A stretch of DNA of 64,000 nt from Enterococcus hulanensis (lineage in GTDB: Bacteria; Bacillota; Bacilli; Lactobacillales; Enterococcaceae). Location of the stretch: assembly GCF_005405485.1 (NCBI RefSeq), contig NZ_BJED01000008.1, positions 62,001 through 126,000 on the forward strand. Direction: 5' to 3'. How positions within the stretch are numbered: position 1 is the stretch's first letter; every line of letters starts with the position of its first letter. This document shows, in pieces, positions 25,511 through 40,901 of the stretch. Both the position numbers and the translations under genes were made by a program. The notes under the pieces were generated by a model. It saw only the letters and a list, made by a program, of their open reading frames with translations. It searched no databases and was not told the origin of the DNA.

Positions 25511-25630
25511 CTCTATCTTCTTTATCCAGACTGTACTGTCGGTATCGGAATTACACCGATTCGGCTGCTTGCGCAGTTCGCGGACTATTACCGCCGGTCG
25601 GGATTTTCACCCTGCCCCTGAAGACGAACC
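25511..25630 (-). promoter_or_regulatory. FMN riboswitch (RFN element)
   Basis: The minus strand contains the conserved RFN blocks in order: TCAGGGGCAGGGTGAAA, CCCGACCGGCGGTA, AGTCCGCGA, and GATACCGACAGTACAGTC. These are the known signature of the FMN aptamer. With the terminator at 25447-25483 it should shut off ribU when FMN is plentiful. The 308-base gap between ribU and rluB is filled by this element and about 65 AT-rich bases (25631-25697) that likely hold its promoter. Confidence 0.96.
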
Positions 25631-37226: not shown

Positions 37227-39806
37227 GTGGTTAAATTAGTCGATTGGTTCAAAGCACATTTAAATAAGTTCAAAACAATTTTTTTAATTTCAGTTATCAT
37301 TATTGTCATATTCGAATTATCAAATATCGCAAAAACAATTTCCTTCGATCAGCTGTCAACTATTTTTAGCCAGATCAGCATCTGGAATATTTTGCTGATG
37401 GCGCTGATTGGATTGGTTTCTGTAACCCCCATGATTGGTTACGACTTTACTTTAAATAACATCCTGGAGCAAAAACCGAAAAAGAGATATATTTTTGAAA
37501 CTAGCTGGTTAGTCAATACCTTGAATAACATCGCTGGTTTTGGCGGTTTTGTTAGTGCAGGATTACGTTCAGAATTCTATGGCAAGCAATCTTCTGGAAA
37601 AAAAGTCGTCCAAGCGTTATCCAAGATTTTAGTCTTTACTATGTCCGGCTTATCTATTTATGCGTTGATCTCTTTTTTCTTGGTAATATTTGACGATCAT
37701 AATCAATATTTGCGTCAATATTGGATCTGGCTAATTGGAGGCGGTTTGTATTTTCCAATCGTTTTTTGTCTAAGTCTTTTTGGCAAAGGAGAATACCTCG
37801 GTGATTTAAAAAGTACTCATCGCTTAGAATTGATTGGAACCTCTTTCCTTGAGTGGACCGGTGTATTAGTGAGTTTCATTTCTACCGGGCTTTTAATGGG
37901 AATCAACGTTAGTCTGCGTGACGTTGTACCGTTATTTATTGCAGCTACAGTGATCGGGATCGCCTCAATGATCCCTGGTGAACTTGGCAGCTTTGATCTG
38001 ATGATGATCATCGGTTTATCAGCTCTGGGTACACCTAGAGAAACGGTTGTTGCGTGGCTTCTGCTATTTAGACTTTTTTATTACTTGATTCCATTTGCTA
38101 TCGGTTTGGTTTTATTTTTCAAAAACCTTGGTACAACGATTAATACACGTTATAAAGGCATTCCAGTTGGTCTTTTAAAGGAATTAGCCCATAAACTCGA
38201 GGGTTTTCTGCTTTACTTTACAGGTATCATGCTAGTCTTGTCTGCAACGATTCCTGAAGCCTTTATTCGCCTGCCATTCTTGCAGCGTTTAAATCCGATT
38301 CACTCACGTGTGATCGTTGTATTTCCGGCAATTTTATTAGGGTTTTTATTGATTGTTACTGGCAGAGGGATCTCAGCACGAGTCAAACGAGCTTATGTTC
38401 CAACGATTCTTATTGTAACGCTGACCTTCCTTTATTCACTACTGGCAGGCTTTCGTGTCTCAACTGGTTTTTTCTTAGCACTGCTGTTATTATTTGTTAT
38501 TTTTTCTAAAAATGAATTATACAGAGAGCAACTCGTATATTCTGCAGAATGGATGACAATCGATGGATTTATTATGGGCGGTCTGACAATTTTATACATC
38601 ATTATCGGTGTGTATAATAGTCCGAACATTCATCATCGTCATCGTTTACCGGAATTCTTTTTGTTTCCTAGCGAACGAATATGGGGTGTTGGTTTCATTG
38701 CGATTTTGATCGTAGCCTTCATCATTTTATTAATGATCCGATTCTTGAAAAACAAACGTATTCAAATTGGCGAGGCCGTCGATGAGAAGCGTGTTCAGCA
38801 TATATTAGAGTCTTATGGCGGTAATCCTGATAGTCAATTAGTTTTTCTCAAAGACAAGAAAGTTTTTTATTATAATAATGGCGAGGAAGATACCGTCTTC
38901 TTCCAATTATCAACCTTCAACAACAAGATTTTGATAATGGGTGATCCTTCAGGGAAAACAAGCGATTTCGAAGCAGCTACAGAATCCCTGATCAATGAGG
39001 TCGACCGCTATAATTATTTGCCTGTCTTCTATGAAAATAGTGAAGAGATGGTCATGATTCTCCATGAGTTTGGATATGACTTTATCAAGTTTGGTGAACG
39101 CGCACATGTTCATTTACCTGACTTTACATTAAGCGGCAAAAAAATGAAGGGACAGCGAGCGAGCTTCAACAAAGTTTTAAAGGAAGGGTATCAATTCGAC
39201 GTCATCAAACCGCCTTTCTCAGCTGACACGATGTCAGAGTTACGAGCTATTTCTGATGAATGGTTAAGCGGTCGTAAAGAAAAAGGCTTTTCTTTAGGAT
39301 TCTTCTCAGAAGATTACCTGCAACGTGCGCCAATCGCTGTGATCAAAAATCAAGCTCAAGAGATCGTGGCTTTCGCGAATTTTATGCCAACGTATACGAA
39401 CAACATAGGAACAATTGATTTGATGCGTCATAGTCCTGAAAAAGCTCCAGGCGGAACAATGGATTTTCTATTCATTAATTTGTTTCAATATATGCGTGAC
39501 GAAATGGGAATCGAGTACTTTGATTTAGGTATGGCTCCTTTAGCAAATGTTGGTACTTCCCGCAAAAGTTTTACTCAGGAACGAATCGCATACTTAGTGT
39601 ATAATTTTGGTTCACGCTTCTATTCCTTCGGTGGTTTGAAGGAATACAAAGATAAATACGCAAATGAATGGCTCCCTGAATATGTGTTATACTCTCGCGA
39701 CAGTTGGATCGGATATGTCATGATTGCACTACTTATCACCGACAATGCACCAGTTCAAGGCGAAAAAAAATATCGCGGATTTCGTCGTTTTATTTTCCGA
39801 GATTAG
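37227..39806 (+). CDS. mprF: Phosphatidylglycerol lysyltransferase/flippase MprF
   Basis: An 859-residue protein with an N-terminal flippase part of about 13-14 membrane spans (residues ~10-510) and a C-terminal cytoplasmic synthase domain (DUF2156, about 520-845; PSGKTSDFEAA, GERAHVHLPDFTLSGKKMKGQR, EYFDLGMAPLANVG). It adds an amino acid, usually Lys, from aminoacyl-tRNA to phosphatidylglycerol and flips the lipid, lowering negative surface charge and giving resistance to cationic peptides and daptomycin. I chose GTG 37227, seven bases after GAGGAG; an ATG at 37212 lies inside that site. Ends at an intrinsic terminator. Confidence 0.95.
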   Translation: MVKLVDWFKAHLNKFKTIFLISVIIIVIFELSNIAKTISFDQLSTIFSQISIWNILLMALIGLVSVTPMIGYDFTLNNILEQKPKKRYIFETSWLVNTLNNIAGFGGFVSAGLRSEFYGKQSSGKKVVQALSKILVFTMSGLSIYALISFFLVIFDDHNQYLRQYWIWLIGGGLYFPIVFCLSLFGKGEYLGDLKSTHRLELIGTSFLEWTGVLVSFISTGLLMGINVSLRDVVPLFIAATVIGIASMIPGELGSFDLMMIIGLSALGTPRETVVAWLLLFRLFYYLIPFAIGLVLFFKNLGTTINTRYKGIPVGLLKELAHKLEGFLLYFTGIMLVLSATIPEAFIRLPFLQRLNPIHSRVIVVFPAILLGFLLIVTGRGISARVKRAYVPTILIVTLTFLYSLLAGFRVSTGFFLALLLLFVIFSKNELYREQLVYSAEWMTIDGFIMGGLTILYIIIGVYNSPNIHHRHRLPEFFLFPSERIWGVGFIAILIVAFIILLMIRFLKNKRIQIGEAVDEKRVQHILESYGGNPDSQLVFLKDKKVFYYNNGEEDTVFFQLSTFNNKILIMGDPSGKTSDFEAATESLINEVDRYNYLPVFYENSEEMVMILHEFGYDFIKFGERAHVHLPDFTLSGKKMKGQRASFNKVLKEGYQFDVIKPPFSADTMSELRAISDEWLSGRKEKGFSLGFFSEDYLQRAPIAVIKNQAQEIVAFANFMPTYTNNIGTIDLMRHSPEKAPGGTMDFLFINLFQYMRDEMGIEYFDLGMAPLANVGTSRKSFTQERIAYLVYNFGSRFYSFGGLKEYKDKYANEWLPEYVLYSRDSWIGYVMIALLITDNAPVQGEKKYRGFRRFIFRD

Positions 39807-39833
39807 CAACTCCAAATACGAAGTTGCTTTTTT
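39806..39833 (+). terminator. Intrinsic terminator of mprF
   Basis: GCAACT pairs with AGTTGC around a ten-base loop, followed by six T on the plus strand; starts at the mprF stop codon. Confidence 0.8.
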
Positions 39834-39836
39834 GTA

Positions 39837-39865
39837 TTGACAAGTCCAAGCAATCCGTCTAAAAT
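39837..39865 (+). promoter_or_regulatory. Strong promoter of the attenuated aroB-like gene
   Basis: TTGACA (39837-39842), 17 bases, TAAAAT (39860-39865): near consensus. It fires into the leader peptide gene at 39905. Confidence 0.85.
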
Positions 39866-39904
39866 GAACCACAATATAAAACTAATCAGTTTGGAGCGTT
39901 TATT

Positions 39905-39961
39905 ATGACTCAATTAATCTCTGTACAACTGAATAATTTTTACTTTAGCTATTTTAGATAA
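39905..39961 (+). CDS. Aromatic leader peptide of an attenuator, 18 residues
   Basis: An open frame with sequence MTQLISVQLNNFYFSYFR and stop TAA. Five of the last seven residues are Phe or Tyr, a typical stall sequence for a Phe/Tyr attenuator. TTTGGAGCG lies eight bases before the ATG, and a near-consensus promoter is 40 bases upstream. The stop codon directly touches segment 1 of the attenuator, so ribosome position can choose the fold. Its short length and extreme content make a function as a normal protein unlikely. Confidence 0.75.
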   Translation: MTQLISVQLNNFYFSYFR

Positions 39962-40040
39962 GTTTGTATTCATGATTCATGGATGCAAACACTTAAGTTT
40001 GTATCTATGATGGCTAAGGCTTTTAACGCTGACTTGTCCG

Positions 40041-40072
40041 GCCACATAGATGAAAATCTATTGTGGCTTTTT
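40041..40072 (+). terminator. Attenuator terminator 1
   Basis: GCCACATAGAT, GAAA loop, ATCTATTGTGGC (one bulge), then TTTTTATTTT. Confidence 0.8.
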
Positions 40073-40085
40073 ATTTTGTTTTAGA

Positions 40086-40125
40086 AGGCTCATTGTAGAT
40101 TTTCGAATCTATGATGAGCTTTTTT
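40086..40125 (+). terminator. Attenuator terminator 2
   Basis: A 14-bp stem (40088-40101 with 40106-40119) around a TTCG tetraloop, followed by six T. Its arms repeat the ATCTATGATG string of attenuator segment 3. Confidence 0.8.
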
Positions 40126-40166: not shown

Positions 40167-40901
40167 ATGAACACTGTACCGAAAATTATGATTAAACCAG
40201 ACGCCCTTGCAGCAATCGGCAGTTACGCAGCTTCACTTTGGTCAAAGAAAAAAATTGTCTTAATCAGTGACAATGAGACTTTCGACCTTTATGGAACACT
40301 AATCCTCCAATACCTGACAATTTTTGATTTTGAAGTGCATACTTTGATTTTAAACGAAGTTCACTATACAACAACTACCGCAAGTCTAGTCTATGATTTC
40401 TTAACTAATCAAGGAATCACTCAAGCAGACGGAATTATTGGTTTAGGGAATGAAGCAGTTTGCCAATTAAGCGGATATGTCTCAGCAACTTACTGCGGCG
40501 GTCTTTCATTAATTCAGATACCCACTACTTTGCTAGGCCAACTTACGCTTCCAAAACAAAAACATGCCTGCTTATTTAATAGTGAGGCGAGATATTTACA
40601 ATCAGTAGTTTCAAAACCGGACGGGATTTTAATCGACACGAATATTGGCAATGACGCTTCTGTTGAAGAAGTGAATTCCGTACAAACTTTTCTGCTCAAA
40701 TTAGGGCTTTCGCAAGATCACGCGTCTCGCCGTGAGTTGAGAAAGAAAACTCGGATCTGCGGTCACCAATTGGACTACAAGAAAATACTTGATGCATTAC
40801 CTTCTAACCTGCCACTTTCTAAACAAATACGGCTGCTTTCGAGTTCGCAGTATCTTGATATTCGGTCTATCTTACTGTTTGGAATCCCTTCAAGTTTCTA
40901 A
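40167..40901 (+). CDS. Truncated 3-dehydroquinate synthase (AroB)-like protein
   Basis: A 244-residue protein that resembles the first two-thirds of AroB: VLISDNETFDLYG, DGIIGLGNEAVCQLSGYVSA (AroB: GGGxxGDLAGF), LIQIPTTLLGQL, and GILIDTNI...TFLLKLGLSQD where AroB has EVIKYGLI. The Glu zinc ligand position is Phe, the DSSVGGK block is changed to TLPKQKH, and the C-terminal domain with GHTFGH and HGE is missing, so activity is not expected. GGAGG precedes ATG 40167. It is expressed from an attenuated promoter that appears to sense Phe/Tyr. It could be a decayed remnant of an aro operon or a recruited binding protein. Confidence 0.65.
   Translation: MNTVPKIMIKPDALAAIGSYAASLWSKKKIVLISDNETFDLYGTLILQYLTIFDFEVHTLILNEVHYTTTTASLVYDFLTNQGITQADGIIGLGNEAVCQLSGYVSATYCGGLSLIQIPTTLLGQLTLPKQKHACLFNSEARYLQSVVSKPDGILIDTNIGNDASVEEVNSVQTFLLKLGLSQDHASRRELRKKTRICGHQLDYKKILDALPSNLPLSKQIRLLSSSQYLDIRSILLFGIPSSF

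Follow-up and report, generated by a model that had tools for sequence, protein, structure and literature searches.

A conserved Phe/Tyr leader peptide element of Lactobacillales is likely a ribosome-mediated attenuator with relay-coupled terminators

An RNA leader upstream of an AroB-derived gene in Enterococcus hulanensis appears to be a ribosome-mediated transcription attenuator, in which stalling at Phe or Tyr codons of a short leader peptide would lead to readthrough of two terminators coupled by a relay helix. Comparative sequence analysis and RNA folding lead us to give this reading a probability of roughly five in six. The related copies described below point to what is likely a Phe/Tyr leader-peptide attenuator conserved across the order, whose relay design is unusual.

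The window analysed here is the whole stretch of 64,000 nucleotides (contig NZ_BJED01000008.1, positions 62,001 to 126,000 of the forward strand). Within it the leader element, about 290 bases long, sits between the terminator of the upstream gene mprF (NCBIfam NF033480) and a 244-codon open reading frame. Its parts are listed below in window coordinates, with RNA segments numbered 0 to 7 and helices named after the two segments that they join.

39806..39833 (+), intrinsic terminator of the upstream mprF: hairpin GCAACT...AGTTGC plus a T run, just 5' of the leader promoter
39837..39865 (+), sigma-70-type promoter TTGACA-17-TAAAAT, 11 of 12 consensus bases
39893..39896 (+), Shine-Dalgarno sequence GGAG of the leader, from sequence; an SD-like site is present in 179 of 185 distinct copies
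39905..39961 (+), leader peptide ORF, MTQLISVQLNNFYFSYFR and stop, 18 aa, ending FYFSYFR; ATG at 39905, stop at 39959-39961
39925..39934 (+), nucleotide motif ACAAYTRAAT within the leader ORF, from its conservation in copies
39938..39955 (+), control codons Phe-Tyr-Phe-Ser-Tyr-Phe; aromatic positions kept across copies
39943..39960 (+), segment 0, overlapping the last Phe/Tyr codons and the stop; partner segment 3 (fold, pair counts)
39962..39974 (+), segment 1; partner segment 2 (fold, pair counts)
39977..39990 (+), segment 2; partner segment 1 or 3 (pair counts)
39997..40019 (+), segment 3; partner segment 0, 2 or 4 (pair counts)
40041..40051 (+), segment 4; forms either the antiterminator with segment 3 or, as 5' arm, the putative terminator 1 (pair counts)
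40056..40078 (+), segment 5 (40056-40067) and U tract; forms either the relay helix with segment 6 or, as 3' arm, the putative terminator 1
40088..40100 (+), segment 6; forms either the relay helix with segment 5 or, as 5' arm, the putative terminator 2 (pair counts)
40108..40125 (+), segment 7 and U tract; putative 3' arm of terminator 2 (pair counts, U-tract count)
40167..40901 (+), gene behind the leader, encoding an AroB-derived protein of 244 aa in which the C-terminal portion of dehydroquinate synthase is missing

A first-pass annotation, made from the sequence alone, had proposed a consensus promoter, an 18-residue leader with FYFSYF near its end, four mutually exclusive pairings (1:2, 2:3, 3:4 and 4:5) and tandem terminators, and all of these are present in the window. 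The four helices consist entirely of standard pairs (13/13, 14/14, 11/11 and 11/11, respectively), with one bulged base skipped in each of 3:4 and 4:5. The annotation had drawn five segments; these exist, and the series extends from 0 to 7, with further helices 0:3 (17/18 pairs), 5:6 (10/11) and 6:7 (12/12), of which 0:3 and 5:6 had been overlooked. The leader region (281 nt) has a folding energy of -83.3 kcal/mol, compared with -52.5 +/- 4.9 for its shuffles (z = -6.3), none of 200 shuffles folding as well. Two hairpins carry trailing U runs (40041-40078 and 40088-40125). A simple terminator scan of the window lists neither of them, only the 1:2 hairpin; we read this as reflecting the bulge in 4:5 and the ability of the 6:7 stem to extend into its own U run. 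Both terminators rest on sequence, fold and conservation. A scan for promoter-like sites found two in 1001 bases, a number that shuffled sequence also yields, and the promoter call therefore rests on conservation.

To place the element among known RNA families, the leader region was compared with Rfam. It matches RF02863 ("Enterococcus sRNA 2410") at 74.6 bits (gathering score 61), and no other family reached its gathering score there, the phe, trp and his leaders included. A T-box (RF00230) was considered and set aside, as the window has no match at gathering score, whereas the leader of pheS in this genome does have one. Elsewhere in the window an FMN riboswitch lies at 25511-25629 on the minus strand (99.3 bits). 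The RF02863 consensus starts inside the last Phe/Tyr codons and lacks the start of the ORF. Its structure as displayed (22 positions are undisplayed) comprises 0:3, 1:2 and 4:5, a small hairpin in the linker and a further helix that encloses 4:5, and contains neither 2:3 nor 3:4; the enclosing helix is present in the E. faecium-type copy and absent from the window. The best-scoring copy (L004, E. faecium-type, 212.5 bits) precedes a TrpX-type gene. There the RF02863 match ends at 1695 and the core of segment 6, CCATTTGG, starts at 1697. In that copy the linker between segments 3 and 4 (1581-1590) can form 10 pairs with 1638-1647, past segment 5; this linker helix belongs to the Rfam structure and is absent from the window.

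RF02863 was searched for in the genomes of a family, an order and a class, which we take to be Enterococcaceae, Lactobacillales and Bacilli. At E <= 0.001, 101 of the 105 family genomes have matches (95 above cut-off), as do 215 of 395 genomes and 52 of 80 genera of the order (99 genomes above cut-off) and 35 of 398 genomes of the class (10 above cut-off). For this group, the order-level count does not support the earlier description of the design as uncommon. Five of the class matches lie outside the order (G437, G548, G575, G584 and G594; E 2e-8 to 8e-4, below gathering) and may be either distant relatives or chance.

Among the matches listed, we assembled a working set of 188 copies (148 from Enterococcaceae and 40 from other families), of which 185 are distinct. 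A match at a contig edge (G053:C6) was excluded from the 148, and 17-19-bit hits in L109, L113, L143 and L144, a duplicate (L148) and the N-containing L051 were dropped before counting. Because the RF02863 model omits the ATG, the Shine-Dalgarno sequence and the promoter, evidence for the leader ORF is independent of the copy search. An in-frame ATG leader is present in all 185 distinct copies, and an in-frame ATG with a Shine-Dalgarno-like site and no intervening stop in 179, compared with 39 of 3700 shuffled upstream sequences; the other 6 leaders have no SD-like site by our rule. A promoter scoring at least 10/12 precedes 180 of the 188 copies, versus 6.3% of shuffled sequences, with a median of 34 nt separating the -10 box from the leader ATG. 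The control positions are strongly constrained. Counting codons back from the stop position in all 185 leaders (one codon table omitted 28 of 145 by a motif rule), the share of aromatic residues is 100% at -2, 98.4% at -3, 99.5% at -5, 100% at -6 and 81% at -7, and Tyr and Phe exchange for one another while the positions remain aromatic.

To examine the helices, plain MAFFT alignments, non-redundant at 93% identity, were made of 61 copies upstream of aro genes (aro-type) and 67 upstream of transporter genes (transporter-type). Five copies whose downstream gene was left unclassified by the text rule were not aligned (L096, L159, L175, L179 and L188); by hand, L130 was reassigned from the transporter group to the aro group, and L117, L137, L138, L143 and L144 were added. 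In the aro-type alignment, paired cells make up 94.2% of 0:3, 97.5% of 1:2, 97.5% of 2:3, 98.1% of 3:4, 96.4% of 4:5, 95.1% of 5:6 and 95.4/90.9% of 6:7. The transporter-type values are 99.3/87.0% for 0:3, 94.3% for 1:2, 89.5% for 2:3, 97.4% for 3:4, 87.3% for 4:5, 95.5% for 5:6 and 97.8% for 6:7. Control structures slid along the alignments pair in 24-50% of cells. The percentages for 0:3, 1:2 and 4:5 lean upward because the model used to search for copies contains those helices; 2:3, 3:4, 5:6 and 6:7 lie outside what the search looked for.

Covariation was evaluated against shuffled alignments, a kind of test that kinship inflates: none of 500 shuffles reached the observed score for any aro-type helix, nor for any transporter-type helix except 2:3, whose covariation in the 67 transporter-type rows is not above shuffles. 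Changes on both sides of a pair occur in 6:7 (8 of 12 pairs in each alignment) and in 5:6 (5 of 11 aro-type, 3 of 9 transporter-type), and are rare in 3:4 (1 of 11 and 1 of 10), so that helix 3:4 is backed by pairing across the aligned sequences and hardly by covariation. The first-pass annotation had named loss of the leader frame, or a lack of compensatory changes in the stems, as findings that would speak against it; the frame is kept across copies and compensatory changes appear in both alignments. Recurrence of the leader in 185 distinct copies, and of the helices in 128 aligned ones, goes beyond chance.

These patterns bear on an earlier interpretation of what is very likely the same element. 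In Streptococcus agalactiae a 270-nt leader of gbs2033 was described as a new riboswitch, conserved in Lactobacillales before ABC transporters and before aroFBC-tyrA of E. faecium, and RNA-seq revealed two transcripts, one short and one long, with premature termination (Rosinski-Chupin et al. 2015, PMC4448216, in the portion of that article available). We equate the two from their shared position and hosts. There the leader was read as binding a ligand, and no leader peptide is proposed in the main text, from which the word "peptide" is absent. A metabolite-binding riboswitch, in which the RNA would bind an aromatic amino acid and thereby shift the balance between terminator and antiterminator, would agree with those transcripts and with the strong conservation of the RNA. 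The most conserved stretch, on the other hand, is an open frame with a Shine-Dalgarno sequence and an ATG, largely explained by codons and pairing, while the loops are variable and no aptamer-like unpaired core was seen save ACAAYTRAAT, which lies inside the ORF. We regard a riboswitch as improbable.

A leader-peptide attenuator should respond to the position of the ribosome. We folded the window RNA at successive lengths while holding a footprint from -17 to +13 of the A site single-stranded; the footprint size and a transcription start at 39872 are assumptions. This check, which the first-pass annotation had suggested, predicts three states (3:4, 2:3 and 0:3) that depend on ribosome position. 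With segment 4 just made and no ribosome, helix 0:3 is predicted at 0.85. With the A site on Phe12, Tyr13, Phe14, Ser15 or Tyr16, 3:4 reaches 0.96-0.98 and 1:2 0.80-0.99; with it on Phe17, Arg18 or the stop, 2:3 reaches 0.91-0.99. In masked folding the Tyr at codon -3 is intermediate and the last Phe codon resembles the stop.

The same procedure was applied to the aligned copies, the stop being assumed to coincide with the 3' end of segment 0 throughout, also in rows whose frame stops later. Without a ribosome, 0:3 exceeds 0.5 in 39/61 aro-type and 52/67 transporter-type copies. Placing the A site at codon -5 brings 3:4 above 0.5 in 49/61 and 55/67, respectively; at codon -3 it is favoured in only 43/61 and 34/67. 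With the A site at the stop, 2:3 exceeds 0.5 in 61/61 and 58/67. Copies that do not favour 3:4 at codons -5 or -3 depart from the model in these predictions, and 3:4 is favoured even without a ribosome in 10/61 aro-type and 8/67 transporter-type copies.

The predicted choice of helix appears when segment 4 has just been made, and not in longer transcripts at equilibrium. When the window RNA extends to terminator 1 or 2, the equilibrium fold combines 2:3 or 0:3 with the terminators wherever the ribosome is placed and also in its absence (4:5 at 0.95, 6:7 at 1.0). Because the terminators win at equilibrium regardless of the ribosome, the switch would have to be co-transcriptional, that is, kinetic.

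On this basis we propose the following mechanism. A ribosome on the early Phe/Tyr codons would cover segment 0 and largely spare segment 1, so that 1:2 stays and segment 3 pairs with segment 4. Helix 3:4 would free segment 5 to pair with segment 6, and neither terminator (4:5, 6:7) would form. A ribosome at the last Phe, Arg or stop codon would also hinder segment 1, leading to 2:3 and hence to termination at 4:5 and 6:7; without a ribosome, 0:3 and 1:2 would form and both terminators with them. A shortage of charged tRNA-Phe or tRNA-Tyr would thus be expected to cause readthrough, with folding during transcription deciding the outcome. The first-pass annotation had likewise expected starvation to favour readthrough, and masked folding predicts this sign; the chain of 1:2, 2:3, 3:4 and 4:5 by which it was to come about would alone give termination, since a ribosome blocking segment 1 leads to 2:3 and then to 4:5. 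It is the pairing of the Phe/Tyr codons (segment 0) with segment 3 that turns the sign to readthrough.

The stop-codon state would also suit a nascent-peptide arrest mechanism, with free Phe/Tyr stalling the ribosome at the stop so that 2:3 forms and transcription terminates when the amino acid is in excess. Such a stop-codon stall is known from TnaC. The end of the peptide, QLNxxYFSYFR, is strikingly constant, and placing the ribosome at the stop in the folding leads to 2:3. The conservation of QLN nevertheless appears to be that of nucleotides, wobble bases included: an in-frame rule slightly wider than ACAAYTRAAT describes 142 of 145 distinct Enterococcaceae copies, and within these AAT is never AAC (142/142), the wobble bases are nearly fixed and the base preceding AAT is A in 138, though the amino acid of that codon varies. 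Outside Enterococcaceae just 18 of 40 copies conform to the motif rule. A search for a pairing partner of ACAAYTRAAT found no region with complementarity clearly longer than in shuffles. In addition, three leaders (L096, L108 and L146) end in YYVSYY and stop one codon early, losing the last Arg while the RNA around the usual Arg-stop is retained, which indicates that the RNA and frame constraints can be separated. Arrest is accordingly a doubtful explanation, given little weight beside attenuation by stalling at the control codons. Eight further copies, all outside Enterococcaceae (L151, L158, L176, L177, L180, L181, L185 and L187), stop three codons later (FRxCL or similar), inside segment 1, and in these the stop-codon state may differ.

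Returning to the attenuator reading, the two terminators differ in their distribution. By a rule of at least five U in the eight bases after the helix, a U tract follows 6:7 in 60/61 aro-type copies and in all 64 transporter-type copies with enough sequence (3/67 being too short). A U tract follows 4:5 in 49/61 aro-type copies, that of the window included, and in 1/67 transporter-type copies; 12/61 aro-type copies lack it. As judged from these sequences, 6:7 is the putative terminator common to both types, and 4:5 is apparently a mere relay hairpin in transporter-type copies and also a terminator in most aro-type copies. The tandem terminators had been drawn correctly in the first-pass annotation, apart from the coupling of the second one through 5:6. 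This coupling is predicted by folding: with 3:4 held, the probability of 5:6 exceeds 0.5 in 59/61 aro-type and 66/67 transporter-type copies, and it does so in no copy with 4:5 held or with the downstream part shuffled. In the window, with segment 6 just made and a stalled ribosome, 5:6 reaches just 0.24-0.40 at equilibrium.

Segments 3, 5 and 7 resemble one another, as do 0, 4 and 6, and this makes cross-pairing partly automatic. The element could therefore be an attenuator without a relay, in which termination depends on 6:7 alone, joined by 4:5 in copies with a U tract there, and 5:6 is a by-product of similar arms. The comparable helix 3:6, which would make segment 3 a direct antiterminator of 6:7, offers a test of this idea: in transporter-type copies it pairs in 64.2% of cells, no better than shuffles and with no covariation, against 95.5% for 5:6. 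The changes on both sides of 5:6 noted above also count against a by-product, and transporter-type copies keep 4:5 (87.3% paired) though 66/67 lack a U tract after it, for which there is otherwise no obvious reason. An attenuator without a relay is thus unlikely, albeit the strongest competitor to the relay-coupled form that we favour.

The genes behind the element point to aromatic metabolism. Downstream genes were grouped by BLAST, with NCBIfam names for the members in the host genome only and the others assigned by reading. The first ORF after the 148 Enterococcaceae copies is TrpX-type in 76, aroE in 49, a DAHP synthase gene in 9, AroB-derived in 5, aroC in 4 and aroK in 1. The other four first ORFs are transposase-like in L076 and short antisense ORFs in L100, L104 and L141; L076 is assigned to Tetragenococcus halophilus, and its transposase-like ORF looks by eye to be of IS200 type. 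By the text rule, the 40 copies from other families precede 26 TrpX-type genes, 9 aroE, 1 pheA and 4 unclassified genes. In each of five genomes with a split aro operon that we examined, the parts inspected have their own leader copies: before aroE or DAHP synthase and again before aroC in E. pallens, G002, G006 and G011, and before DAHP synthase and before aroK in E. florum.

The host genome contains three RF02863 copies, namely that of the window, L001 before a TrpX-type ABC transporter gene, and L003/L148 before a full aro operon (aroE-DAHP synthase-aroB-aroC-tyrA-aroA-aroK-pheA). Neither the genome search, which finds these three copies only, nor inspection of the sequence itself places a second leader between aroA and aroK. 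Two copies of a further sequence, GTTTAGnnnGATnnTATACGGCnTGA, lie in the gap between these genes (L148, reverse strand, at about 10075 and about 10226 counted from its start) and a third lies between leader and trpX (L001, 1768-1793); the sequence is possibly a dispersed intergenic repeat.

This genomic arrangement is relevant to the annotation of RF02863, which belongs to the same sequence family as the window element but is filed as an sRNA gene (Rfam type Gene; sRNA). In E. faecium, sRNA_2410 was reported as a 195-nt species with two transcripts on a Northern blot (Sinel et al. 2017, PMC5593968, in the portion available), and the terminated leader might on that account be a functional product acting in trans. 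Most copies, though, lie directly 5' of an aromatic gene and have their own promoter, ORF and alternative helices, and two bands would also be expected from attenuation combined with processing or two ends. We consider a dedicated trans-acting sRNA very improbable, the least credible of the explanations weighed here; a secondary role in trans may exist beside attenuation.

In the window, the element would control a conserved, AroB-derived and probably non-catalytic protein. The ORF matches AroB over residues 6-125 only (TIGR01357, 58.5 bits; cut-off 305) and shares 34% identity over 192 residues with the AroB of the same genome, which is complete (388 bits) and lies within the aro operon. The metal ligands and several catalytic residues of AroB lie in the C-terminal part that the ORF lacks, and because they fall in the missing part the protein is probably not an enzyme. 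It is a candidate pseudoenzyme with its own Phe/Tyr leader. Across five genomes, dN/dS is 0.13-0.26 in the six pairs with finite dS (dS 1.0-2.6, near saturation), dS being saturated in the remaining 4 of 10; the ORF is apparently under purifying selection, and on these ratios a dying pseudogene was rejected. A search of 5.8 billion proteins with this protein returned 12 hits, of which 11 are short relatives with lengths of 205-265 aa. All relatives with a name are from Enterococcus, in the E. avium group, and the conserved form has 244-250 aa.

The attenuators of E. coli trp and pheA combine a short translated leader, control codons for the amino acid product and segments 1 to 4. The element described here resembles them in its control-codon leader, in its mutually exclusive antiterminator and terminator and in termination as the predicted default without translation. 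It differs in that the control codons themselves pair (0:3), in having segments 0 to 7 rather than 1 to 4, in its two coupled terminators and in a separate stop-codon state, 2:3. Among Firmicutes, T-boxes serve the same purpose (the host genome has 25 matches, 18 above cut-off, one of them before pheS), but sensing here would be by the ribosome and not by tRNA binding. In the available text of one report, trpX of S. suis is placed under a T-box (PMC9382623). Classical leader-peptide attenuation in Firmicutes is represented by the His leaders of the Bacillus cereus group and others (PMC9413887, PMC2965389, as far as the accessible text goes), which respond to histidine and were found in 17 genomes (PMC9413887), against most sampled genera of an order here. 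A candidate Phe uORF, the uORFC-13-1 motif, lies 5' of aroF in Acholeplasma, with 24 representatives; like the present element it precedes a DAHP synthase gene, but it is confined to one genus and environmental sequences, and the accessible text describes no tandem terminators or relay (PMC8632094). In the accessible open-licence literature we found no description of a Phe/Tyr leader peptide for Lactobacillales.

Looking at the copies together, we lean, with some reserve, towards a broader proposal, namely that the aromatic amino acid regulon of Lactobacillales is run by a domino relay within a repeat-built RNA of single ancestral origin. Whether 0:3 or 3:4 forms would depend on a ribosome at the Phe/Tyr codons, and the choice would be passed via 4:5 and 5:6 to the remote 6:7. 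Through most of the aro lineage the relay hairpin may have acquired a U tract and so become a second terminator, and the cassette would have been copied along with splits of the aro operon and onto the new AroB-derived protein.

If the attenuator reading is true, a single mechanism, with matches in over half of the sampled Lactobacillales genomes, would replace both the riboswitch hypothesis and the sRNA annotation, and the level scored as sRNA_2410 is predicted to report Phe/Tyr sufficiency. The element would also show how attenuators can lengthen into a relay and gain a second terminator.
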